Source: Carboxylicivirga marina
Lineage (GTDB): Bacteria > Bacteroidota > Bacteroidia > Bacteroidales > Marinilabiliaceae
Length of the DNA stretch: 40,276 bases
Assembly (NCBI RefSeq): GCF_016612505.1
Contig: NZ_JAENRR010000046.1
Location: forward strand, 1 to 40,276
Reading direction: 5' to 3'
Both the position numbers and the translations under genes were made by a program. Below are positions 1 through 10,745 of the stretch, piece after piece (within the stretch, counting starts at the first letter, position 1; the number at the start of each line of letters is the position of its first letter). The notes below the pieces were generated by a model. That model was not told the origin of the DNA. It did not search any database and worked only from the letters and a program-made list of their open reading frames with translations.

Positions 1-161
1 TTTGGACACCTTGAAAATACTGATATTTCAGAAGATTCAAGGAACACTTATCCCTTTTTTATGAATAATTCAGGTTAATCAAGTTCCATCCAATATTTCC
101 ACCTTTTGAGCATGAAAATTCATGCATCTGTCAAAACAGACGAAACAATTGTAATACTGTT

Positions 162-196
162 AAGTATATTTTACTTATCTTCCGTGTAAAATACTT
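162..196. promoter_or_regulatory. Inverted repeat just upstream of comM
   Basis: Two arms, AAGTATATTTTAC (162-174) and GTAAAATACTT (186-196), form an imperfect inverted repeat that ends seven bases before the comM ATG at 203. It could be a repressor operator or a leader hairpin that controls comM. The right arm also contains TACTTTTA, which resembles the Bacteroidota -7 box TAnnTTTG but lacks its final G. No regulator can be named from this. Confidence 0.35.
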
Positions 197-202
197 TTAA
201 CC

Positions 203-1072
203 ATGCTTGTAAAAACCTTTGGCTCGGCCGTTAGCGGCATTGATGCCTACACCATAACTATTGAGGTGAATATATCTAAAGGCATTCGTTTCTTTTTAGT
301 CGGACTGCCAGATAATGCTGTAAAAGAGAGCCATCAACGCATTGACTCAGCCCTAAAAGTGAGCAACTACAAATGGCCCGGGCATAAAATCGTTATCAAT
401 ATGGCGCCTGCTGATATACGCAAAGAGGGAGCTGCCTATGACCTGCCATTGGCCATTGGTGTATTGGCCGCCTCTTCTCAAATTGTTAATCATAAGCTAA
501 GCGACTACATCATTATGGGGGAATTATCTCTGGATGGTAGCTTACAAGCCATAAAAGGCGTTTTACCCATGGCTCTACGCGCCAAAGAAGAAGGTTTTAA
601 AGGTTGTATTTTGCCCTTGGAGAATGCCCGTGAAGCAGCGGTTGTTAATGACATTGATGCCTATGGCTTTGAAAACATTACGCAAGTCATCCGTTTTCTG
701 GAAGATGAAGACACATATGAACCCGTAAAAGTTGACACCGAACAAGAATTTGAGAGGAGCACACAAGTTGTCGATTTCGATTTCTCGGATGTAAAAGGCC
801 AGGAAAGTGTTAAGCGCTCACTGGAGATTGCAGCTGCAGGTGGCCATAATCTCATAATGATAGGCCCTCCCGGAGCTGGAAAATCCATGTTGGCCAAACG
901 CCTGGCCAGCATTTTACCACCGCTCACTTTAGACGAAGCATTAGAAACCACCAAAATTCATTCGGTAGCCGGAAAAACCGGTAGCGATACCGCATTAATT
1001 ACGCAACGTCCGTTTAGAAGTCCGCACCATACAATATCGGATGACGCACATTGCTTAAAGGCGGTGGTATAA
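203..1072 (+). pseudogene. comM: comM, 5' part, interrupted by an integrated element
   Basis: N-terminal 280 codons of a ComM/YifB-family Mg-chelatase-like AAA+ protein. In naturally transformable bacteria ComM is a hexameric helicase that promotes branch migration during integration of transforming DNA. The start MLVKTFGSAVSGIDA is typical of the family. An N-terminal S5-like fold is followed by the Walker A motif GPPGAGKS (about residues 220-227). True sequence ends at TISD (codon 280 ends at 1042). The last nine codons (DAHCLKAVV) and the stop come from the element. The gene resumes in frame at 8165 with VALVGGG, so Walker A is separated from Walker B, and neither half should be active alone. 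The rejoined product is 280 + 232 = 512 residues, the normal family length, so the gene is probably intact when the element is excised. Confidence 0.93.
1036..1066. other. attL, left attachment site of the comM element
   Basis: Chromosomal comM sequence runs up to the core, and element sequence follows. The shared bases are GATG at 1040-1043. By symmetry of the rebuilt attP, the likely crossover dinucleotide is GA (1040-1041). The element-side arm includes CAC at 1047-1049 and GGCGGTG at 1060-1066. These mirror GTG (8154-8156) and CACCGCC (8137-8143) on the other side. Confidence 0.75.
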
Positions 1073-1558
1073 TTAATCGTCAAAATCAGGGTCTTTTATC
1101 AGTTTTAATAGGTATCTACTTGTTCGTGGAAGGTTGGTTTTAATATAAGCCTCACGTTGGTCTTTGCGCACGCGCCTAATCACCTCAATTGCAATAGCTA
1201 CTAATTCCTTATGTTCGTCGCCCATTTGCTTAGTATAAAGCTGCTTTACAATATTTACGGCTGTTTTTAAATTTTCATTTGCTCCGTCCTCAATCATCTT
1301 TTTCAGCTTTTCATCGTTTTCCAGCATGTTTTGCGCTTTCAACTGGGCACTTTCTTCCTTAATCGCAACATATTTTTTAATCTCATCAAGGTCAAATATT
1401 TCCATAAAGTTCTTAATGGATGCATTTGTTTCCTTTAAGTTTTGCATTTGCGTGGCAAAGGCTTCCTTTTGGTTTTGCATATGGTTACGTTGTATCATAA
1501 AAACAACAACATATGCGGCAGTATAAATTCCAAGTACAACTAAGCTTGTAGTATCCAT
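1073..1558 (-). CDS. Membrane-anchored coiled-coil protein of unknown function
   Basis: A 161-residue protein that I do not recognise. Residues about 5-22 (LVVLGIYTAAYVVVFMIQ) form one hydrophobic N-terminal segment. It is followed by a long charged, heptad-like helical region (about 25-110) and a basic C-terminal part ending in DPDFDD. This suggests a protein anchored in the inner membrane with a cytoplasmic helical bundle. It is the last gene of the element on the minus strand, and its stop codon is about 30 bp from the left crossover point. Small membrane proteins at the edge of an integrated element are often cargo such as exclusion, immunity or defence genes, but nothing in this sequence proves such a role. 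The ATG at 1558 is the only start that keeps the hydrophobic segment intact. Confidence 0.7.
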   Translation of the reverse strand: MDTTSLVVLGIYTAAYVVVFMIQRNHMQNQKEAFATQMQNLKETNASIKNFMEIFDLDEIKKYVAIKEESAQLKAQNMLENDEKLKKMIEDGANENLKTAVNIVKQLYTKQMGDEHKELVAIAIEVIRRVRKDQREAYIKTNLPRTSRYLLKLIKDPDFDD

Positions 1559-1593
1559 AAATATTTGTTTAACATTTATAACAAATATAGCAA

Positions 1594-2187
1594 TTAACTA
1601 TCAAGGCTTAACAGCTTCTTAACCTTAATTACAGTGGGCTTGGTTTTGCCTGTGGTTTCAACCGTTTTAGCCAAGCTCATACCACTGCGGAGGCAGTTGG
1701 CTACATCCTTATACTTGGTAAGCACCTGCTCAGGCGTTTCTGCAGTACCTTGCTTTCTACCTCGGTACACCCCACGCTTCTTGGCTAGTTCAATGCCCTC
1801 TTGCGTTTTCTCTTTTATCTCTTCTCTTTGCTGCTCGGCTATTTGAGCATACAGCCCAGCCATCAGCATAAATGTCTTATTTACCTTTCCACTTTCAAAC
1901 AAGTTTAGGCCCATGCTTTGTATAGTAAGCTGGCACTCGTACTCTTTAAACAATTGGATGGTTTTTAATATGTCCAAAGCATTACGGCCAAGCCTATCAA
2001 GCCTAACAACATAAACGTGGGTAATTCGCCCAATAACGATGTCTTTCAATAACTTGCTGCCCTCAGGCCGTTCTTCAAATGGCGTTATGCCCATTATCCT
2101 ATCAATGTAAACCTTACCAACCTGTTTCAACTCCTGTACCTCGGTGTTTTGCTTTGCGGTGGATACTCTAATGTAAGTAGCTTTCAT
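1594..2187 (-). CDS. Small serine recombinase (resolvase/invertase family)
   Basis: A 197-residue site-specific recombinase. The start MKATYIRVSTAKQNTEVQ holds the nucleophilic serine (S9) in the YxRVST motif, and RLDRLGRNALD is the second catalytic motif of the family. The C-terminal 45 residues look like a helix-turn-helix (KTKPTVIKVKKLL) that binds the crossover site. The length is that of Tn3-type resolvases and DNA invertases, with no zinc-ribbon or recombinase domain, so this enzyme should not be the integrase. Within the element it probably resolves dimers or inverts a segment. The palindrome-rich DNA just upstream of its start (2281-2433) is a plausible res site. It differs clearly from the 550-aa integrase at the other end, so the element carries two serine recombinases of different subfamilies. 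Confidence 0.92.
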   Translation of the reverse strand: MKATYIRVSTAKQNTEVQELKQVGKVYIDRIMGITPFEERPEGSKLLKDIVIGRITHVYVVRLDRLGRNALDILKTIQLFKEYECQLTIQSMGLNLFESGKVNKTFMLMAGLYAQIAEQQREEIKEKTQEGIELAKKRGVYRGRKQGTAETPEQVLTKYKDVANCLRSGMSLAKTVETTGKTKPTVIKVKKLLSLDS

Positions 2188-2379
2188 CTTTGTATATATT
2201 TAAATGTTAAAACTTTACAACTATGGCAGCTAAGTAAATCAAAACCTCAACAAGTAGTAAATATTTAGGCCATATATTTCGTTTACTGGCTAAAATGTCT
2301 TTAAATGGTGGTTTTTGTGGATGCTAGCAGTAAACGGTTAACGGCCAGCCTAAAATTTTACTGCGGGAGGCTATGTCAA

Positions 2380-2433
2380 ATGCCCAAAGGTTCTATTCTA
2401 GACTAGAACCAATGGGCATAAGGTAACATGTTA
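2380..2433. repeat. Long interrupted palindrome plus perfect palindrome, possible res site
   Basis: ATGCCCA (2380-2386), two A, GGTTCTA (2389-2395), an eight-base centre, TAGAACC (2404-2410), two A, and TGGGCAT (2413-2419) form a 40-bp nearly perfect inverted repeat. The palindrome GTAACATGTTAC (2422-2433) follows at once. The block lies about 190 bp upstream of the resolvase start, a position compatible with recombinase binding sites. An RNA hairpin is the alternative reading. Confidence 0.45.
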
Positions 2434-2660
2434 CAATTGTGGAAGGTGTGCACGTTTGCACTTGGTGCAGGTCTCATCCTGCCACGGTTGGCCAAGCTTC
2501 CACATACTTGGCTTTCCGTAATTGTAGTTACATTTTCGTAGGTCTAACACTTCAGCTCTTATTGCTTACTTCGCATTAGTTGGTGTTTCCACCATCTTCT
2601 TAGCACGTCCTACGTGTGCTAACGTACTTACTGATGTGTGTAAGTACAGGAGTTAGATAA

Positions 2661-2684
2661 AAACAAACAAAAAGGGAAACCCTT
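2661..2684 (-). terminator. Terminator-like hairpin, minus strand
   Basis: On the minus strand AAGGG-TTT-CCCTT is followed at once by a T-rich tail (TTTGTTTGTTT). The layout fits Rho-independent termination. No coding gene ends just before it, so it would have to end a non-coding transcript. Confidence 0.5.
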
Positions 2685-3051
2685 CCATTTTACATTAACA
2701 ACCCCAGTTAATAATGGCCACGCGCCGTGACCCAGCCACCCTTGTGGGTGGTTCTTCTTAAAAATTGCCCTGCACCCGCAATAAATCACAAAATGCGGGT
2801 GGATGTTGTTAAGCAAACACAGGGCAATAGAGCCATTAAAATTGGTATTGGTATGGTAATATACCAAAGCAATGGCATAATGGCTTTATAATGTCTTAAA
2901 TCATGGTCATATTAGCATCACCCTCGCGCTCGCGCACTCGCTAGCATTTTTTCAACGTGGGTAATGGCTGTAATTATTGGAATTAGAAATCCTTATTGGT
3001 GCAACCAATGCCCACCCTAATTGGGTAGGCTAGTGGCTGCGGTAACAACAT

Positions 3052-3083
3052 AAAAAAACCAACAATAGAAATATCTTGGTTGG
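3052..3083 (-). terminator. Terminator-like hairpin, minus strand, with seven T
   Basis: On the minus strand CCAAC (3083-3079) pairs with GTTGG (3063-3059) and is followed by seven T (3058-3052). It lies in the gene-free region and is preceded by a CCACCC/GGGTGG hairpin (3091-3115), so a short structured RNA could end here. Confidence 0.5.
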
Positions 3084-3132
3084 CATAAAACCACCCACAT
3101 GGTTAGTGCGGGTGGGAATGGAATGTTAACAA

Positions 3133-3153
3133 ACAAAGAAAACCCCTTGCGGG
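3133..3153 (-). terminator. Terminator-like hairpin with GCAA loop, minus strand
   Basis: On the minus strand CCC-GCAA-GGG is followed by GTTTTCTTTGTTT. The stem is short, so this is the weakest of the three terminator-like sites. The upstream sequence (3155-3200, minus strand) resembles the sequence upstream of the 3052-3083 hairpin: both have a GGGTGG half-stem, then a TATGCCAA motif, then ATATTTC before the final stem. Confidence 0.35.
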
Positions 3154-3387
3154 AAATATTGTTATTGGCATAATGCCACCACCCATTGCGGATGGCAGCT
3201 ACTATGTTACATTTTAAGTATTGGATAATATGTGGGTAGTAAGGTTTGCTATTGGCCTCCACATTGGCAAAAACAAATAAGGCTTTAAATGCCGATGCCG
3301 ATAAATGGAGCCGACCCAATACAGCGGTGTAACCGTTGTTTGGGTTTAAGGCGGTGGGCTGCTTTAGCAGTCCTAAGCAAATTGGTA

Positions 3388-3534
3388 TATTAGGGTATAT
3401 AATATCCTAATACATTTGTATAGTTTAATTTGTATAGTACTTAGTATAGTTATGGGTTCACTACCTGAACCCTAATTGGGGTTCACTACCTGAACCCTAA
3501 ATTAAGGTTTTTAAGGTACGAAAATGAACCCTAA
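3388..3534. repeat. Iteron-like repeats: three GTATAGT copies and two dyads
   Basis: The AT-rich inverted repeat TATTAGG/CCTAATA (3388-3412) is followed by three direct copies of GTATAGT (3418, 3432, 3444). Next come two identical dyads, GGGTTCA-CTACC-TGAACCC (3454-3472 and 3479-3497), 25 bp apart, and a lone half-site TGAACCCTAA at 3525-3534. The block sits directly downstream of the winged-helix gene. Repeats at a fixed spacing next to an initiator-like gene suggest an origin or a multi-dimer operator. Alternatively, tandem RNA hairpins at the 3' end of the operon are possible, but no T run follows them. Confidence 0.55.
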
Positions 3535-3544
3535 ATGGTTTCTA

Positions 3545-3925
3545 TTACCACCAATCTGGCTTGTCAGGAAATTGCGTTACGTACCATTTAGTGCCTGTAC
3601 CTCGGCCAGTACTGCGTATGTAACCTTTCTTTTTAAGGCCTGCCCATACTTCTAATTGGAAAGTCTTAAAGCGTGGGAACTGCTTATCTAATCGCTTGTG
3701 TATTTCTTTTTGGTTCAATTTCCAAGCTTCATCTTGGTTCAATAGGTATGTAAGCAAAACAATTTCATCGCTGCTTAATCCATCTTCCACAAGCTTTGCA
3801 ATATCTATTTGCACAAAATTTGTGGGTGTAGTCTTATCAATGTACTTAGGCTTTCCCGAGTACTTATCTTTGTTAAAGCCATTAGGCTTGCTGTCTTGTT
3901 GTTCTTTCTTCTTTCCCATTGCCAT
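3545..3925 (-). CDS. Winged-helix DNA-binding protein, replication-initiator-like
   Basis: A 126-residue basic protein. After a lysine-rich, disordered-looking N-terminus (1-30), FVQIDIAKLVEDGLSSDEIVLLTYLL and LNQKEIHKRL look like the helices of a winged-helix fold. This is followed by a recognition-like helix and the wing GYIRSTGRGTGTKWYV. The pattern (helices that read like a Rep N-terminal domain, then GYIR and an aromatic wing) resembles the first domain of plasmid initiators and DnaD/RepA-N type proteins. The second domain of a full initiator is missing, so it may be a regulator instead. It overlaps the upstream 66-aa gene by 44 bp, so they are cotranscribed, and the repeats at 3388-3534 lie just beyond its stop. 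Assignment is by pattern only. Confidence 0.65.
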   Translation of the reverse strand: MAMGKKKEQQDSKPNGFNKDKYSGKPKYIDKTTPTNFVQIDIAKLVEDGLSSDEIVLLTYLLNQDEAWKLNQKEIHKRLDKQFPRFKTFQLEVWAGLKKKGYIRSTGRGTGTKWYVTQFPDKPDWW

Positions 3926-4082
3926 TTTGCACTTGGTTGTTAACTGTAATTTTCTTGATAGTGCCTCTCTTTACAAGGTCTTTAAATGTATTGGATGCTT
4001 TGCCCAGGTGCGCACATCCGTCTTTCATATTGTCTACCTTGGTACCGTCGGGCAAAAGGTAGTAATGTTTTTGAACTTTCAT
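3882..4082 (-). CDS. Small basic protein of unknown function
   Basis: A 66-residue ORF that begins MKVQKHYYLLPDGTKV. The first 45 residues look like one folded unit (two short strands, then the helix NMKDGCAHLGKASNTFKDLVKRG, reminiscent of the small DNA-reading modules found beside homing nucleases). The tail is rich in N, K, E and R. The gene starts at an ATG with an A-rich leader typical of this phylum and overlaps the winged-helix gene by 44 bp in another frame. It probably binds nucleic acid, but I do not recognise a family. Confidence 0.5.
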   Translation of the reverse strand: MKVQKHYYLLPDGTKVDNMKDGCAHLGKASNTFKDLVKRGTIKKITVNNQVQNGNGKEERTTRQQA

Positions 4083-4168
4083 GGTCGTTTAATTTGTTTT
4101 AATGTTGTTTAAAATGGCTGACGTAGGCAATACGCCAGCCGTACACAGATAACGAAGCTATTGCCCCT

Positions 4169-4456
4169 TTATAACAATGTGGTGAGCGATTGCTCTTGGT
4201 TGTCGGCTTGGGCATCATTGCAATCAAAGCAATAAATGTCCTTATACCCACGTGCAGCATACTCGCCACTTCCAAAGTGCTCAGCACCTCTAATTCTTCC
4301 ACAGCATACGCACCGTAGCATATTGCGTTTTACACCGCCTTTCTTCGGGTCAGTGCTGCGGGTGGTAGCTTGCGCTCTATTGACAAGCTTTGTGCCTTTG
4401 TCAATAAGTGCAATCATCTTTGCCATTGCTGGCGTTGCGTTATTCTTCGTAATCAT
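4169..4456 (-). CDS. Small zinc-ribbon protein of unknown function
   Basis: A 95-residue protein with two CxxC pairs: CVCC (C49, C52) and CFDC (C76, C79). They are 24 residues apart, which is a zinc ribbon. The N-terminal 45 residues are a basic helix (MAKMIALIDKGTKLVNRAQ). The remaining residues are short and polar. It lies 10 bp downstream of the GIY-YIG gene and is probably cotranscribed with it. Zinc ribbons of this size occur in recombination directionality factors, phage regulators and nuclease partners; nothing here chooses among them. A frame in the same DNA (4099-4302) is a shadow without a motif. Confidence 0.6.
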   Translation of the reverse strand: MITKNNATPAMAKMIALIDKGTKLVNRAQATTRSTDPKKGGVKRNMLRCVCCGRIRGAEHFGSGEYAARGYKDIYCFDCNDAQADNQEQSLTTLL

Positions 4457-4466
4457 TACAATGTAT

Positions 4467-5051
4467 TTAAGAAGAATGGACAGCCTTTTGCCCTTGCTTT
4501 AGGGCTTCGGCTTTTGCCAATGCTTTTAACATGCCCTTGGTGGCCTTTGGCGCACCTTTGCGGTATATGCCACGGCCAACCTTGGTTAGCTTTTCAAATT
4601 TCATTAGAAGCTTAATTACGGCCATTGCTTGGAAGCTCTCCAATTCCCACAATTTAGCCATTGTGGAAATCTGCAACGGTATGCCCTCAGGCAATAGGTC
4701 TAAGGCAAATTCTAAATCAAACCTTGTATAATCTTTATTGTACAATTCTAGGCCTGCATCAATGGCTTCTATAATGTGGTGGCACTCACGCCAAGCAAGT
4801 TCTTTCTTGTCGCTATTATCGGCCATTTCTAACACTTCCACATCAAAGACTTCCATACCATACTTGTCAAAGTCGGCTTGCATTTCTTTGTTGGGGTGTC
4901 TACTTTTCTTAAAGTTGCAACGGTGTGTTCTAAATCTATGTGCTAGGTATATTGTAGAACCTATGTACACCTTGCCATTGGCGGTGTTTGTTATGCGGTA
5001 GAAACCCGCTGTATTCTCGCAATTCTTTGCATTAATTCCATTCAGTAACAT
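4467..5051 (-). CDS. GIY-YIG nuclease, homing-endonuclease-like
   Basis: A 194-residue protein. Residues 16-18 (GFY) and 29-31 (YIG) form the two-strand signature of the GIY-YIG domain. R39/R41 follow in the first helix, E89 is the expected metal-binding glutamate, and ELYNKD (102-107) carries the terminal asparagine. The C-terminal 80 residues include a helical segment (STMAKLWELESFQAMAVIKLL and the following KVGRGIY) that reads like a winged helix, plus a lysine-rich tail, and would give DNA specificity. There is no intron in the element for it to home with, so it may act as a free-standing nuclease in element spread or competition. The gene follows a structured 225-bp spacer. Confidence 0.88.
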   Translation of the reverse strand: MLLNGINAKNCENTAGFYRITNTANGKVYIGSTIYLAHRFRTHRCNFKKSRHPNKEMQADFDKYGMEVFDVEVLEMADNSDKKELAWRECHHIIEAIDAGLELYNKDYTRFDLEFALDLLPEGIPLQISTMAKLWELESFQAMAVIKLLMKFEKLTKVGRGIYRKGAPKATKGMLKALAKAEALKQGQKAVHSS

Positions 5052-5069
5052 GTTTTCTAATTGTTAGTG

Positions 5070-5146
5070 TATAAAATGTGGAGGCAGCTCACAGCCGACT
5101 GCTGGAACACACTCCTCCACAATAAGAATCTGACAGTCAACTGTCA
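5070..5146 (-). terminator. Terminator-like hairpin preceded by a perfect small hairpin
   Basis: On the minus strand, TGACAGT-TG-ACTGTCA (5146-5131) is followed by the stem TGTGGAGG/CCTCCACA (5121-5114 with 5084-5077), which encloses a nested GCAGC-rich hairpin. The T-rich stretch TTTTATA comes next. It occupies the 226-bp gap between the HNH-like gene and the GIY-YIG gene, so it could attenuate transcription into the nuclease or end a small RNA. Confidence 0.45.
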
Positions 5147-5277
5147 AACTCAGCCGTTTCTAGCTACAAGCCCTATAAGGACTGGCTTCAACGGTGAAGA
5201 AACCTAATAAACAATTGCTTGTCACATGGTTGACTAGGCCAACAATGTTCATTGGATTTGCTTCATGGCAGACGCTA

Positions 5278-5613
5278 TTATGCCCACACCGCTCTCCATT
5301 GCAGGTTATCAGCTTTGCAGTTGGTTTTATCACCATCTTTAAAGCCAATAACGTTCAGGCGGTGCGGGTTCGGTAAAAAGTAAAGGGCAACCATGCGGGC
5401 AACCCTCACTTCTCTTGGTACCGATATGTTTTTATAACTTCTCACTCTGGAGGTAAATACAATATGACCGTACTTGTTTGCTCTGGTCGGTTTTGGGCGT
5501 ATCTCGCCACTCTTATACATAAAGTATACATTACCCTCAGGCGTTATGTAATGGGTGCTTAAAAATGCCCCTTTAAAGCATTTTGCCCCTTTTGGTAAAT
5601 CAGCTACGGTCAT
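5278..5613 (-). CDS. HNH-endonuclease-like protein lacking catalytic histidines
   Basis: A 111-residue protein with the layout of a NUMOD4/HNH_3 homing nuclease: YITPEGNVYFMYKSGEI at the N-terminus, then the HNH core VARMVALYFLPNP and NVIGFKDGDKTNCKADNLQW. In the active family the core reads VHRLVA...FLPNP and NHxDGxKxNN...NLxW. Here the first histidine is A72, and the NH pair of the second motif is G90-F91. N103 and the final tryptophan remain. The protein therefore keeps the fold but probably cannot cut DNA, and may have become a DNA-binding regulator. It is followed by the 5070-5146 hairpins and the GIY-YIG gene, and it lies 5 bp downstream of the 231-codon ORF, hence in the same transcript. 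Confidence 0.78.
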   Translation of the reverse strand: MTVADLPKGAKCFKGAFLSTHYITPEGNVYFMYKSGEIRPKPTRANKYGHIVFTSRVRSYKNISVPREVRVARMVALYFLPNPHRLNVIGFKDGDKTNCKADNLQWRAVWA

Positions 5614-5618
5614 AGTCC

Positions 5619-6236
5619 TTAAATTTTGGTCAGGTCGTAAGCAAACCCCCTGTTTATCTTACCATCTGCGTCAAACGCTCGATGCAAGTTCTTACGGTTT
5701 GGATTTGCTGTAAACACCCCTGCGTGGATAGCCTGCGCAATTGCGCTTTCTATCTTTTGCAAGTGTTCTAAGTGTTCGTTTTGGCGTTCGTTAGCAGTGC
5801 GCCAAACTGATGCCTCATAGCAACGTTCTTGCAGGCTTGGCGCATCGTCCGCGTTCCACCATGCAATAGCATTCTGCACACCTTCCGTACGCAATGCGGT
5901 ATCATGGTCAACAGCTACATTGTGGAGGGCGTGTAAGTGTTTTATTGCTTCTTTATCTTGGTTTGTACCAAGCCCAAGCTCGTTAATTAACTTGTCCTGG
6001 TCTACAATGCCAATAAGGTCCTTAATTCTTTCTTTGTACTTTTCTAGCAATAGCTTATCAGCCTTACCACTAAGCACCATGCTTACAGCATCTTCCACGT
6101 TAGCAAATTGCTCCGCAGTTATCACTCCTATTTTAGCAACCGTTTGTTCAAACGCGAGTGCCTTTGCTAATACTCTTCTTTCTCTAGCTTCATCATGGCG
6201 TATCACCATGCTTACAAATGTGTTCTTTTTATCCAT
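5619..6236 (-). CDS. Hypothetical helical protein, element operon first gene
   Basis: I chose the ATG at 6236 (205 residues, starting MDKKNTFVSMVIR) rather than the upstream one at 6314. The upstream choice would translate a perfect 10-bp inverted repeat (6286-6308) and a leader unlike the rest of the protein. The protein is soluble, predicted mostly helical, and rich in alanine, lysine and glutamate. A middle part reads NAIAWWNADDAPSLQERCYEASVWRTANERQN. The C-terminus (HAGVFTANPNRKNLHRAFDADGKI) is polar. I do not recognise a family. It is followed at 5 bp by the HNH-like gene, so it leads the small operon that runs toward 3545. A regulatory or replication role is plausible from position only. 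Confidence 0.65.
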   Translation of the reverse strand: MDKKNTFVSMVIRHDEARERRVLAKALAFEQTVAKIGVITAEQFANVEDAVSMVLSGKADKLLLEKYKERIKDLIGIVDQDKLINELGLGTNQDKEAIKHLHALHNVAVDHDTALRTEGVQNAIAWWNADDAPSLQERCYEASVWRTANERQNEHLEHLQKIESAIAQAIHAGVFTANPNRKNLHRAFDADGKINRGFAYDLTKI

Positions 6237-6285
6237 CTTATTCTTTTTTTTAATGGTGATAATACTTGTTTTGTTAAATGCCATA

Positions 6286-6308
6286 AAGCTACACATTGTG
6301 TGTAGCTT
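6286..6308. promoter_or_regulatory. Perfect inverted repeat upstream of the element operon
   Basis: AAGCTACACA (6286-6295), a three-base centre and TGTGTAGCTT (6299-6308) form a perfect 10-bp dyad about 50 bp upstream of the ATG at 6236. The placement fits an operator for the operon promoter. An RNA hairpin with a three-base loop is the alternative. Confidence 0.45.
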
Positions 6309-6381
6309 ATACATAATGATACGTAATAACTCTGGGTGTTTCCTTTGGGCTGTGGATGAGGTTCTTATGTCATATAAACAA

Positions 6382-6410
6382 GGAGGGCGCTACGTAGCGT
6401 AACACCCTCC
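6382..6410 (-). terminator. Hairpin downstream of the integrase gene
   Basis: GGAGGG (6382-6387) pairs with CCCTCC (6405-6410) around the inner palindrome CGCTACGTAGCG (6388-6399). It lies 35 bp after the integrase stop codon and, on the minus strand, is followed by TTGTTTATATG. It probably ends integrase transcription and separates it from the operon at 6236. Confidence 0.5.
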
Positions 6411-6444
6411 AAATTATCCGTTTTATATGTTGCTTTTGCGGTTA

Positions 6445-8097
6445 TTATAAATCGGGCTTAATAACCTTATCGGCAATGTCAATTACCATATCAAGTGGTA
6501 CACGTTTGCCGTCCTCATTAAATGCTTCTTTTACACGGCTTGGTAAAATGTATACCCTATTGTTACCATCAACCTCAAATATTTTAATAAGGTTGTAATA
6601 TATTGTTTTATCGGTATAGCGTTGCGTTATTTCGCTCGGTACGTCACCAAGTGGTAAGGTAGTTACCCGCACTTCAGATAGGTGTTCATTTGTGTGCTCA
6701 CGCAGTTTGTTAGCTTCTGTGGGTAGTATGCTTGCTGCCTCTTCTCGGCTTATCTGCCCTGCTATTGCTTGGCTAGGTTGATAGCTCTTAATCAGCTTTT
6801 CTAATTTCCTAACAGCGCTTAACTTCCGATATCGGTCGCCTTGCGCCTTATTAATATTTTGCTTTATCTTTTCTTTATCGCTTGTGTACTCTTGCAAGTC
6901 TATATCTTGTATCTTAAATAATATCTTAAGCCTATTTAAAGCCTCTTCTTCATCACGCCACAGCCTTTCCAAATGTGCTTTGGCTTTCTCTAAATCCATT
7001 TTCAACTCTACAAGTTTAACCTTTGCGGCATCCACATCAAAGTTGCGCTGCATATCTATTAAGTGGTAATATACAAGGCAATTTAATGTATCTATATTAA
7101 CGGAACGGTGGTTACAGCTTGGCTTTTCTTTCTTGCTTAAACATAAGTAGTAATTGTCCGTTAAGTAGTCTTTGCCATTTGCAGTCTTTACTTTTCGGCG
7201 CATAGTCATAGCCTTTCCACAACCACATTTTATTATGCCTTCTACAATATTTACATTCTTCCTTTTGCGGAGGCCAGCACGGTTTTTAGCAATCTGCAAC
7301 TGTACCTTTTCCCATACGTCAGGGGCAATTATGGGAGCATAATTTAATGGCCCAAGCCGTTCATCAACTTGCTTAATGCTCAAGCGCCTTTGCCCTTTAT
7401 AAATAGGGTTCTTTAGGATTTCTAAAACAACAGCTTGCTTCCACCGCTTGGTTGTATGCTTTAAACCTCGCATTACTTTAACCGTTGGTCTACGGTCATT
7501 ATTAAGCAATGTTGCTATTGTACCGCTGCCATAGCCTTTAAGGCAATAATCAAATATTTCCTTAACCAACTTCACCTCATCGTCATTCCTTACAAGCACT
7601 TTGTTTTCATTCTTAAACCCAAGCGGAGGGATGCCTTGCCCTGCCCCTTTATCACGCCTGTGCTTTAATGCCGACTTAACACGTGCCTTGGTCTGCGCTG
7701 CTTCCATTTCAGCCAAGGCGGATAGCATAGGCAATTCCATAATCGCAAAGTGGGTTTTCTCACCTTTCTCATTAATGGTATCCCTATTGCCTTGCAATAC
7801 ATGTACATTTATGCCCTTTGCAAATAGCTCTTCCACATGGCTAAGCACATCCGCAACCTTGCGCCCTAATCTGGATAGCTCCCATACTAATACAACATTG
7901 GTTTTATTGGTTTCAATGTGGTCAAGCATCTTCTTAAATTCAGGTCGGGTGTTTGCCTTTGTTGTACCACTAATCTTCTCAGCAAATATTCCAGTTAAGT
8001 TATAACCTTTGCCACTTGCATACTTGGTGCATTCGTCAATTTGGCATTCATAGTCTTGTACTGATGTGGAGACCCTAGAGTATATTACAGCGTTCAT
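6445..8097 (-). CDS. Large serine integrase
   Basis: A 550-residue large serine recombinase, the likely integrase and excisionase core of the comM element. The N-terminal catalytic domain holds the nucleophile S10 (YSRVST) and the SRLGR motif at 75-79. The recombinase DNA-binding domain (about 155-275) includes GIPPLGF and ILKNPIYKG. The zinc ribbon has C291, C293, C319 and C328. A coiled coil (about 350-445) precedes a C-terminal region of about 100 residues. This order is that of phiC31/Bxb1/A118-type integrases. Its start is about 65 bp inside the right end, so attP lies just upstream of the gene. In this class, integration needs no accessory factor, whereas excision needs a directionality factor; one of the small unknown genes of the element is the natural candidate, but which one cannot be told from sequence. 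Confidence 0.95.
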   Translation of the reverse strand: MNAVIYSRVSTSVQDYECQIDECTKYASGKGYNLTGIFAEKISGTTKANTRPEFKKMLDHIETNKTNVVLVWELSRLGRKVADVLSHVEELFAKGINVHVLQGNRDTINEKGEKTHFAIMELPMLSALAEMEAAQTKARVKSALKHRRDKGAGQGIPPLGFKNENKVLVRNDDEVKLVKEIFDYCLKGYGSGTIATLLNNDRRPTVKVMRGLKHTTKRWKQAVVLEILKNPIYKGQRRLSIKQVDERLGPLNYAPIIAPDVWEKVQLQIAKNRAGLRKRKNVNIVEGIIKCGCGKAMTMRRKVKTANGKDYLTDNYYLCLSKKEKPSCNHRSVNIDTLNCLVYYHLIDMQRNFDVDAAKVKLVELKMDLEKAKAHLERLWRDEEEALNRLKILFKIQDIDLQEYTSDKEKIKQNINKAQGDRYRKLSAVRKLEKLIKSYQPSQAIAGQISREEAASILPTEANKLREHTNEHLSEVRVTTLPLGDVPSEITQRYTDKTIYYNLIKIFEVDGNNRVYILPSRVKEAFNEDGKRVPLDMVIDIADKVIKPDL

Positions 8098-8136
8098 ATT
8101 TAAATGTTTATGGCTTAAAGATAATCAAATTTTCTA

Positions 8137-8173
8137 CACCGCCTATATTAAGGGTGTATCTGATGTTGCTTTG
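8137..8173. other. attR, right attachment site of the comM element
   Basis: Element sequence up to about 8162 is followed by comM sequence. GATG at 8162-8165 matches 1040-1043. The element-side arm CACCGCC (8137-8143), with GTG at 8154-8156, is the mirror of GGCGGTG and CAC on the left end when the site is centred between the G and A of the core. Confidence 0.75.
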
Positions 8174-8863
8174 GTCGGAGGAGGCTCTTTTCCGCAACCA
8201 GGCGAAATCTCCTTGTCGCACAATGGTGTTTTGTTTTTAGATGAATTACCTGAATTTAAACGAACCGTGCTTGAAGTAATGCGCCAGCCATTGGAGGATC
8301 GTCGAATCAGCATCTCACGAGCGCGCTTTACCATCGACTACCCGGCCAGTTTTATGTTGGTATCATCTATGAATCCATGCCCTTGCGGCTATTTTAATCA
8401 TCCCGAAAAAAAATGTGTCTGCAGCCCCGGAGTCGTGCAAAAATACCTGAGTAAGATATCTGGCCCATTGCTCGACCGCATTGATTTGCACATTGAGGTG
8501 GTGCCGGTGCCGTTCAATAAACTGGCCGAAGCACCTCCAAGTGAGAACAGCATTGCAGTGCGAGACCGGGTTATAAAAGCCCGAAGAGTTCAAAACGAGC
8601 GATTTAATGGCAATGACAAAGTTCACTGTAATGCACAAATGAGTTCCAGACAACTAGCAAAGTATGCCACTCCTGATGAGGCGGGTATGAATATTCTTAA
8701 AACAGCCATGGAGAAACTGGATCTATCGGCAAGAGCTTATGATCGGATATTGAAAGTATCGCGCACCATTGCCGATCTGGAGGAATGTGAAAAGGTACAA
8801 GCGCATCATGTAGCTGAAGCTGTTCAGTATCGTAGTCTGGATAGAAGTAATTGGGGTGCGTGA
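8165..8863 (+). pseudogene. comM: comM, 3' part, after the integrated element
   Basis: C-terminal 232 codons of the ComM/YifB protein, resuming in frame with VALVGGGSFPQPGEISLSHN directly after the right junction. It contains the Walker B segment GVLFLDELPEF, the FMLVSSMNPCPCGYF region, the arginine-bearing LLDRIDLHIEV and the C-terminal Mg-chelatase domain with SARAYDRILKVSRTIADLE. The reading frame stays open into the element back to a GTG at 8066, which would add 33 foreign residues, but no start signal supports translation. The fragment is unmutated and continuous, which suggests recent insertion or selection for the excised, intact gene. Confidence 0.93.
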
Positions 8864-8899
8864 GCAATTACTTTATTGTTTTTATGCTTGTTAGTTTTT

Positions 8900-8923
8900 G
8901 GCGACGTAGCGAGACGCTACGCC
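8900..8923. repeat. REP-like hairpin after comM
   Basis: GTAGCG (8906-8911), a three-base loop and CGCTAC (8915-8920), flanked by GGC (8900-8902) and GCC (8921-8923), form a GC-rich hairpin in an AT-rich spacer, 37 bp after the comM stop. It may act as a terminator or be a member of a dispersed intergenic repeat family. Confidence 0.45.
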
Positions 8924-9024
8924 GAACGGGAGGCATAAGGGAATATGAATATTTAATCAAACAATTATAAATCGTTCATATCAAACGATATGAACCAGTA
9001 TTAACACTAAAATTAAATTTTAAA

Positions 9025-9411
9025 ATGTCAGTTAACTACAAAGTAGTTGCCAAACGTAACCCTGGCAACAGAGAAGCAGACCCTAAGTATTATGCATCGG
9101 CAAATGCAAAAGGAAAAAGAAATCAACGTTTTATAGCCAAGCAAATAGCTGAACGTTCATCATTAAACGAGATGGATATACTGTCGGTTATTGAAGGTTT
9201 TCTGCAGATTGTACCCGAATGCCTGGCCGATGGATACAGTGTAGGTCTGGGTGATTTTGGTTCATTCTCAATTACCGCTAAATCGGAACCAGCCGATACA
9301 GCAGAGGAATTTAACGCCAGCCTCATCGAAGGCGTCAAACCTAATTTCAGACCCGGTAAGTTATTTAAAAAAGAACTTGGCCAACTTGAATACAAGAAGA
9401 TAAGCGAATAA
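9025..9411 (+). CDS. HU-family DNA-binding protein (HU-HIG type)
   Basis: A 128-residue histone-like protein of the form widespread in Bacteroidota. The N-terminal strand VNYKVVAKRNPGNREADPKYYA is followed by the HU-like helices RFIAKQIAERSSLNEMDILSVIEGFL, the strand region VGLGDFGSFSIT and a C-terminal segment (FRPGKLFKKELGQLEY). HU proteins bend and compact DNA and act as dimers. This subfamily usually lacks or shortens the long DNA-wrapping arm and has the extra N-terminal strand seen here. The gene stands alone: a hairpin precedes it and a strong terminator follows it. The ATG at 9025 has an A-rich leader typical of highly expressed genes of the phylum. Confidence 0.88.
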   Translation: MSVNYKVVAKRNPGNREADPKYYASANAKGKRNQRFIAKQIAERSSLNEMDILSVIEGFLQIVPECLADGYSVGLGDFGSFSITAKSEPADTAEEFNASLIEGVKPNFRPGKLFKKELGQLEYKKISE

Positions 9412-9431
9412 TCAATCGGGAAAGTAAGTGC

Positions 9432-9478
9432 AAAACGTCGGGATATTTTTCAAAAATGTCTCGACGTTTTTATTTTTT
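9432..9478 (+). terminator. Rho-independent terminator of the HU-like gene
   Basis: AAAACGTCG and CGACGTTTT form a long stem extended by ATTTTT/AAAAAT, and the following sequence is T-rich (TTTTTATTTTTT). It starts about 20 bp after the stop codon at 9411. Confidence 0.8.
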
Positions 9479-9631
9479 ATACCTACGTTTTATAGAAACA
9501 TCGAAACCTTCTGACAAAAATGCAAGGACATTCTGAATAAATGGTCGAAGCATTTTTTTAAAAGGTAGGGAGTTTTTTGGGGAAGGTAATGGTTTGGAGC
9601 AAAAAAATATGCGAAGACAGTTTGGAATAGT

Positions 9632-9685
9632 CAAGCTTTGAGATTGTAGTCAGTAAGCACAGATTACAAATCTGCGCTAGCGGGA
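9632..9685 (+). repeat. 54-bp direct repeat, copy 1
   Basis: It begins CAAGCTTTGAGATTGTAGTC and includes the dyad CAGATTACAAATCTG. It matches 10890-10943 with about five mismatches in 54 bases. With copy 2 it brackets the abortive-infection gene. The motif family (GATTACAAATC followed by CGCTAGCGGG) looks like the dispersed intergenic repeats of Bacteroidota, often compared to REP sequences. The rest of 9479-9779 holds only an AATACTT/AAGTATT dyad (9719-9741), which lies 38 bp upstream of the next gene and may be its operator. Confidence 0.7.
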
Positions 9686-9779
9686 GAGGGAGGTACCCTA
9701 TTATTGTTAATAACTCATAATACTTTCCTTATTTAAGTATTGGACATTCCACTATCTTAGAAGTCATAAAGACATTCAA

Positions 9780-10745
9780 ATGGATATTCATAAAGAAATT
9801 GAACAAGCAGAAAAAAAACTCAAGCAGAAGCAGGATAGTTTAACTGGTGAAATTACTTCACTTAATGATAAAATTAGCTTCTATACTGCTTGGGCATGGG
9901 TGTTTGTCATTGTTGGACTTGCTATTACTCTTGCTGCTTTCTTTATATATTTTCAATCTGATAAAGGTGAGTTTTATAGTTTAAACCTCCTTGGTGATTT
10001 TATGGCAGGTGCCGTTGCTTCTCTTTGGTCGTTGGCAGGATTATTTTTTATTTACGTAGCATTCTTAGGTCAGAAACAACAGTTGCTTAATCAACAGCTT
10101 GAAATAAGTTTGAGTCAACTTGAAGTTAAATACACACGTTTGGAGTTAGCAGGTCAAAAGCAAGAAATGCATATTCAAAACGAAACCATGAAGCAACAAA
10201 AATTTGAAAATACATTTTTTCAGATGCTTACTCTGTTTCACTCTATCGTTGATAGTACGGATATATCTATCGATGGTATTGCCGATGCGGAATTATCAGG
10301 TAGGGACTGCTTTATGCAATTTGTAAGAAAATTGGGGCATCATGCATTTAATAAGGAATCAAGAGGAGACATAGATTATGACATAGCAAGGAAAACAAAA
10401 CCTTTGGATATGTATATTAGAGGTTATGATGCATTTTATCAAATATACAAATCTGATTTAAGCCATTATTTTAGAACCTATTACCACATAATAAAACTCA
10501 TCGATAAATCTGATGTTGAAAATAAAAAGCAATACATATCCATTGCACGCGCTCAACTATCAAGCAATGAACAGATACTATTGTTTTATAATTGTCTCCA
10601 TAAAAACGGTAAAGATAAATTCAAACCATTAATAGAAGAATATTGCCTCTTTAAAAATTTGGATGATAATTTACTATTTAACATCGAACACAAAAAGGCA
10701 TATACTGAAAGTGCTTATATCCCGCGAAAAGAAGAGAAAGAGTAA
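9780..10745 (+). CDS. Putative phage abortive infection membrane protein (AbiC-like)
   Basis: A 321-residue protein. An N-terminal coiled coil (1-32) is followed by two membrane helices (about 36-58 and 72-95), a second coiled coil (98-140) and a cytoplasmic domain with FENTFFQMLTLFHSIV (142-157). Later come HYFRTYYHIIKLID and YISIARAQLSSNEQILLFYN, which are the hallmark motifs of the putative phage abortive infection family (putAbiC). Members are thought to stop phage production by killing or arresting the infected cell; the mechanism is not established, so function is by family. The gene is more AT-rich than its neighbours, stands alone between two housekeeping genes and is bracketed by a 54-bp direct repeat, all consistent with acquired defence cargo. 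Confidence 0.8.
   Translation: MDIHKEIEQAEKKLKQKQDSLTGEITSLNDKISFYTAWAWVFVIVGLAITLAAFFIYFQSDKGEFYSLNLLGDFMAGAVASLWSLAGLFFIYVAFLGQKQQLLNQQLEISLSQLEVKYTRLELAGQKQEMHIQNETMKQQKFENTFFQMLTLFHSIVDSTDISIDGIADAELSGRDCFMQFVRKLGHHAFNKESRGDIDYDIARKTKPLDMYIRGYDAFYQIYKSDLSHYFRTYYHIIKLIDKSDVENKKQYISIARAQLSSNEQILLFYNCLHKNGKDKFKPLIEEYCLFKNLDDNLLFNIEHKKAYTESAYIPRKEEKE

Follow-up and report, generated by a model that had tools for sequence, protein, structure and literature searches.

In the 40,276-nucleotide stretch of Carboxylicivirga marina DNA analyzed here (contig NZ_JAENRR010000046.1; hereafter the window), the gene comM is split by an inserted element of 7.1 kb. We consider it probable (about 0.85) that the insert is a small integrative element brought into comM by its own large serine integrase, through conservative recombination between the attachment site of the element (attP) and that of the chromosome (attB), and that its excision would rebuild the gene. 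The mechanism of insertion is well supported, and so is the exact restorability of comM at the level of the sequence; the role of a physiological switch is possible.

Structure of the Split comM Gene

The comM gene extends from its start at position 203 to 8863 and is interrupted in codon 280, the element lying between two copies of GATG (1040-1043 and 8162-8165). The homology ends after TISD (codon 280) and resumes with VALVGGG after position 8164, at the coordinates given by an earlier, sequence-only reading of this DNA. When one GATG is kept, the joined gene measures 1,539 nt and codes for 512 amino acids followed by the stop, with no internal stop codon, which bears out the claim of that reading that no base is lost. 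The interrupted 5′ frame reads nine codons of the element up to a stop at 1072 (289 aa), and the 3′ part lies in a frame opening with GTG at 8066 (265 aa). Both parts matched the YifB/ComM model TIGR00368, the 5′ part over model positions 4-278 and the 3′ part over positions 274-499. On the joined translation GPPGAGKS stands 5′ of the cut and VLFLDE 3′ of it; we take these motifs to be Walker A and Walker B, and the split falls between them, as had been proposed.

The identity of four bases alone may be due to chance. The junction is regarded as real because genomes of the same genus carry comM uninterrupted across it, the dyad of the element is centred there, and 12 further insertions occupy the same site. 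An assembly artefact or a chance four-base match would be easier to imagine in a draft of 206 contigs such as this one; however, both junctions lie inside one contig, and the same two-base site recurs in 12 other assemblies with the dyad centred on it, which reduces this explanation to a negligible probability. A second full-length comM was not found in this draft genome. Its two other PF13541 matches (contigs C129 and C55) are weak and probably represent RadA and Lon.

Survey of comM in Related Genomes

The sequence-only reading had proposed a survey of comM for empty and filled sites, and both kinds exist: same-genus genomes are uninterrupted at this place, and 13 filled sites were collected in total. 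The gene is present in 69 of the 71 genomes of the family. In two of the 71, namely the window's genome and G052, which belongs to another genus, it is split and a large serine integrase is found at the point of the split. Four genomes of the window's genus (G007, G012, G015, and G017) have a full-length comM and an integrase match at another locus. Elsewhere in the gene, comM is broken in four of the 71 family genomes (G016 near residue 167, G028 near 320-339, G003 near 430, and G001 near 443); these breaks are frame breaks or a stop, and no insert was seen at them. The gene is thus sometimes simply lost.

At the level of the order, comM was found in at least 282 of the 295 genomes sampled. 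Twenty-seven genomes (26 of this sample plus G052) were picked for partial, double or low-scoring comM matches and searched again, a choice from which we claim no order-wide frequency; here G350 and G314 likewise had comM split with an integrase. Named genomes were scanned with a profile of four comM integrases, and 80 of 96 relatives were kept. At 11 of these 80 loci a comM half broken at residues 271-284 lies near the integrase. Two of the 11 are G052 and G350 again, and both comM halves were found for each of the other nine (9/9), whose hosts are Marinifilum sp. D737, four Flavobacterium (F. hibisci and F. nitrogenifigens among them), Salegentibacter tibetensis, a Psychroserpens metagenome-assembled genome (MAG), and two Bacteroidota MAGs. 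The set of 13 insertions consists of the window, G052, G350, G314, and these nine named genomes. The comM halves share one contig in 9 of the 13, with an insert of 7.1 kb in the window and of approximately 13 to 51 kb in the others.

Damage to the comM halves in relatives, which the sequence-only reading would count against itself if no sample showed an excised junction, was found twice: the 3′ half of G365, which has an integrase insert, is without its normal end, and the 3′ half of G266 holds a stop. The junction TIS[D/N]VALVGGG would be restorable in all 13 insertions. G266, a genome of the same order, was left out of this set as its insert is a Tn7-like element with matches to TnsA, TniB, and TniQ; it interrupts comM 18 bp downstream and is flanked by GGAGG at either end (L057-L058). 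G240 was also left out, because a serine recombinase was not found in the stretch examined (L063, C6:153800-172200). This stretch has an intact comM and, 15 kb downstream, a second 3′ half starting at the GATG core, with two shorter comM 3′ fragments in between; the arrangement may reflect repair through recombination or carriage by an element. In G014 (L044/L045), of the same genus, comM stands on two contigs, whose ends overlap by 23 bp, with a 20-bp part unique in the assembly, and it was rejected as a second insertion. G321 (L064) was not counted, as its contig ends at the comM site and no element was seen. The contig ends at the comM attB in G014 and G321 may reflect a mixture of filled and empty sites, or chance.

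Crossover Site and attP Dyad

In 13 of 13 insertions attL equals attR at bases 1 and 2 of codon 280, the dinucleotide being GA in seven cases and AA in six, and the joined flanks invariably read TIS[D/N]VALVGGG. The identical run of attL and attR is exactly this dinucleotide in G314, G367, and G369, and a run of just two bases pins the crossover, which the comparison places at bases 1-2 of codon 280 (window positions 1040-1041 and 8162-8163). The domains of the window integrase, and the recurrence of the same two bases in 12 further insertions, agree with the earlier claim that the split is the work of a serine integrase acting at a defined place. That claim had called the split precise and reversible: the precision stands, and for the window element the reversibility is predicted from its sequence, in that excision would restore comM exactly.

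When the ends of the window element are joined, 15 of 25 positions pair with the dyad centred on the GA of GATG, and no other centre in that stretch does as well. Summed over the 13 elements, 169 of 286 positions are paired at the crossover and at most 102 at 16 other offsets. With arms swapped between elements the count was 126 ± 8.5, and with the left arm shuffled 88 ± 7.4; none of 2000 trials reached 169 in either case. Taken singly, 11 of the 13 elements have their best dyad centre at the core. The attB sequences show no pairing peak there (96 paired vs up to 114 at other offsets). The position of the integrase gene varies: some elements have it at the 5′ junction and others at the 3′ junction, among them the window element, where the gene adjoins the right junction. 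In Salegentibacter tibetensis (L086:3836-6277) the integrase frame stays open across attR and continues into the 3′ half of comM, giving 813 aa, so that integration or excision would change the C-terminus of the integrase.

On the mechanism we propose, the integrase of the window element would recombine attP, with its dyad centred on GA, with attB in codon 280 of comM. In the integrated state the two Walker motifs of ComM would be separated by the cut, and the protein would presumably be inactive, and excision, probably requiring a directionality factor, would rebuild the gene exactly. The primary trait would be a precise and conserved landing site. Reduced recombination of foreign DNA, and hence less curing, may be a side benefit rather than a programmed switch.

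Phylogenetic Relatedness of the Integrases

In the tree of 31 integrase rows the comM label needs three changes, compared with a mean of 10.2 after shuffling (0 of 500 shuffles as low), and four changes when four viral rows are added. The comM integrases are clustered but are not shown as one clade, integrases from other sites being placed between them. Either one old origin with changes of site or several gains may account for this. In plasmid and phage collections only integrases of less than 60% identity were found, the best at about 25-27% among the matches listed.

Several observations speak against our explanation. The comM integrases stood on one side of a branch in none of 200 bootstrap trees, and at least two changes are forced. 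One integrase inside the comM group on the tree (L102, Flavivirga) occupies another site, in a genome whose comM is intact. Because the 80 loci were collected by a profile built from four comM integrases, they are biased towards such kin. The window integrase is at most 32-33% identical to any other row, and its grouping with those of Marinifilum, G052, and G350 has moderate support (80/87 with 31 rows; 86/65 and 91/85 with the viral rows). In 4 of the 13 cases (G052, G367, G368, and G370) the two pieces of comM are found on separate contigs, and a single element joining them is presumed. As to the dyad, G314 has none at the core (6/22), G370 ties, and the circularised window element has other chance dyads of up to 17/24 against 15 at the core. 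The dyad of a single element is therefore only suggestive, and the case rests on the comparison of 13 elements. Finally, the window's assembly holds attL and attR only, with no excised junction present.

This last point would also suit a defective relic that is unable to leave, comM being simply lost, as would the fact that a directionality factor was not recognised among the proteins of the window element scanned (eight in the Pfam and NCBIfam scans, nine in the phrog scan). However, the integrase frame is open over 550 aa and both att sites are present, and we judge a relic to be quite improbable. The comM halves of the window have no changes of their own in 327 columns invariant across 14 relatives, though a recent dead insertion would look alike; the same count in six intact relatives was 0 in three and 1, 2, and 4 in the other three. 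Undecayed halves fit a recent and a reversible insertion alike, and this count does not distinguish the two. The synonymous distance (dS) of comM was saturated in nearly all pairs, and dN/dS, its ratio with the nonsynonymous distance, was not relied upon.

Free Circular Relative

Two IMG/VR contigs from different datasets (L176 and L177) are permutations of one circle of 7,212 bp, with terminal overlaps of 127 and 115 bp and otherwise identical sequences. This demonstrates that an unintegrated form exists for a related element, distinct from that of the window. The large serine integrase of the circle is 44% identical to that of Psychroserpens and groups with it and BB35, two comM integrases, at 99/99. 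A dyad of 18/24 at an AA core lies at the start of the integrase gene, and by eye the arms are like those of Flavobacteriaceae comM elements. The circle probably targets comM.

The circle encodes a second serine recombinase, as does the window element; these small recombinases are 22% identical over 79 aa (E 0.013) and alike only as serine recombinases. The two elements as one family outside their integrases are thus not supported. The circle also encodes a DUF285 repeat protein with a Por secretion tail. Among viral contigs, the window integrase alone as a query gave no close relatives. The four-integrase profile gave five loci, two of which are the circle; in the shorter stretches examined at the other three no comM piece was seen.

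Known Systems and Possible Function

It is instructive to compare the window element with known insertions into com genes. In Listeria, the comK prophages are elements with a large serine integrase that split a com gene, and their excision restores it. The window element resembles them in its large serine integrase and in splitting a com gene, but its target is a helicase instead of a regulator, its host belongs to another phylum, virion genes were not recognised in it, and its excision is predicted. The yifB gene (= comM) was reportedly included by Mageeney et al. in 2020 among candidates for regulated gene integrity; in such a case an integrative element would likewise split yifB/comM, and its excision could restore the gene.

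ComM has been described as the canonical helicase for branch migration during the transformation of Gram-negative bacteria (PMC11612176). Mobile elements of unrelated kinds interrupt comM in several groups of bacteria, for a reason described as an open question (PMC11472951). The Tn7-like Tn6022 and the tyrosine-recombinase element Tsy both occupy comM (PMC10293859). Tn6022/AbaR and the window element share this target and the same expected effect on transformation (PMC10293859, PMC7508600). However, Tn6022/AbaR insert by TnsF-guided transposition at the Walker B region (PMC10293859), whereas the window element depends on a serine integrase and sits at codon 280, between the two Walker motifs. 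Tsy is, like the window element, a non-Tn7 element in comM, and one Tsy branch has a GIY-YIG gene, but its recombinases are of the tyrosine type (PMC10293859). The prophage proteins of Paenibacillus larvae include a YifB protein (PMC9341999). No report on serine integrases in comM was found in the literature searched, most subscription papers being outside its reach. As a target comM is already known for other enzymes, and serine integrases are an addition.

What, then, does the split do for its carriers? Elements might inactivate comM selfishly: with the gene lost, heterologous recombination would fall, and with it the chance that transformation removes them. Such an anti-curing idea, also raised in the sequence-only reading, has already been published for Acinetobacter (PMC11472951). 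Unrelated machineries do converge on comM (serine integrases, the Tn7-like element of G266, and the published Tn6022 and Tsy; PMC10293859), and the removal of AbaR from comM raised transformation approximately 1000- and 300-fold in two A. baumannii strains (PMC7508600). We regard this as plausible but short of even odds. A conserved ATPase sequence would be a suitable landing site for any element with a broad range of hosts, with no need for the effect to be selected, and an intact comM beside a displaced second 3′ half, as in G240, would remove the effect.

A dedicated switch comparable to the comK prophages, with the cell timing excision to restore ComM when recombination is useful, seems unlikely to us. 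It would accord with the exact restoration of comM in 13 of 13 joined junctions, with the free circle of a relative, and with the intact sequence of the window's comM. Against this stand the damaged 3′ halves of G365 and of G266, the latter with its Tn7-like element, and the broken comM of G001, G003, G016, and G028, where no such element was seen. The ComEC and DprA families are present in the window's genome, but also in controls, E. coli among them; their presence therefore says little about the transformability of the host and is uninformative for a switch.

A broader view, which we offer only tentatively and with some doubt, is that an old set of related serine integrases in Bacteroidota has specialised on a single comM dinucleotide and is found in small circular elements, prophages, and defence islands. 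Integration would then turn the recombination of foreign DNA off and excision would turn it on throughout the phylum, to the benefit of the elements.

With the set of 13 insertions, serine integrases join the enzymes that have comM as their target, and the place of their action is fixed to two bases. The matched attB and attP sequences are directly testable, and the named hosts (Flavobacterium, Salegentibacter, and Marinifilum) are suitable for a search for excision. Pairs of attP and attB with two core types, GA and AA, form a natural series on site choice by serine integrases.

Gene Content of the Window Element and Other Inserts

The features of the split gene and the element are collected in Table 1.

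Table 1. Features of the interrupted comM gene and of the element inserted in it (window coordinates).
Feature	Position	Strand	Evidence
comM 5′ part to base 2 of codon 280, including Walker A	203..1041	+	ORF (open reading frame); TIGR00368/YifB E 1.6e-101; PF13541
attL: comM side and element arm; crossover dinucleotide GA 1040-1041	1010..1071	+	joined-end and multi-element comparison
Element inserted in comM, 7,120 bp, or 7,122 bp when one core GA is counted	1042..8161		joined comM; core-to-core length
ORF, 161 aa, no assigned function	1073..1558	-	no PF or phrog match; marginal NCBIfam match E 0.039
Small serine recombinase of 197 aa, of the invertase/resolvase type	1594..2187	-	PF00239 1e-23; phrog_125 7.9e-29
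Pair of 22-bp repeats of identical sequence, GGGTTCACTACCTGAACCCTAA, both having inverted ends	3454..3500		repeat search; DNA fold z -3.07 for 3390-3560
126-aa DNA-binding-like protein adjoining the 22-bp repeats	3545..3925	-	weak phrog_1456 7.2e-4, phrog_27492 4.8e-4
GIY-YIG endonuclease, homing-endonuclease-like	4467..5051	-	PF01541 1.1e-8; TIGR01453 3.3e-15
HNH endonuclease-like ORF	5278..5613	-	phrog_959 6e-14
ORF, 231 aa, no assigned function	5619..6314	-	no phrog or NCBIfam match; no match in phage collection
Large serine integrase of 550 aa with Resolvase, Recombinase, and zinc-ribbon domains	6445..8097	-	PF00239 9.1e-33, PF07508 1.6e-14, PF13408 2.7e-7; phrog_95 integrase 4e-80
attR: element arm and comM side; crossover dinucleotide GA 8162-8163	8132..8193	+	joined-end and multi-element comparison
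comM 3′ part, rest of codon 280 to stop, including Walker B	8164..8863	+	TIGR00368 1.2e-88, PF01078, PF13335

Virion genes (terminase, capsid, tail), conjugation genes, and tns/tni transposition genes were not recognised among the scanned proteins of the window element, which may be a small integrative plasmid or a satellite. A tRNA attachment site was ruled out, the tRNA scan of the window being empty. The Rfam scan of window positions 1-10000 gave nothing above gathering scores, and promoter and terminator scans gave no decisive result.

In other hosts the inserts carry different cargo, some being prophages and one holding defence genes. The G052 insert has matches to terminase, tape-measure, and antirepressor proteins and the G314 insert has a terminase match, which identifies both as prophages. 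The G350 insert has DarT and DarG matches (L059:9318-10939) and G350 also a partial E1-E2 match, while the Tn7-like element of G266 has E1-E2 and Old/GajA-like matches, a defence-like cargo. Acinetobacter comM inserts have been reported with defence genes (PMC11472951).

The 22-bp repeats of the window element are possibly iteron- or operator-like, and the adjoining 126-aa protein may be a replication or control protein. An AT-rich hairpin stands together with the two repeats at 3390-3560 beside this DNA-binding-like gene, a possible origin of replication. Elsewhere in the window's genome (G000:C196:11800-13005, L013) there is another large serine integrase, 29% identical.

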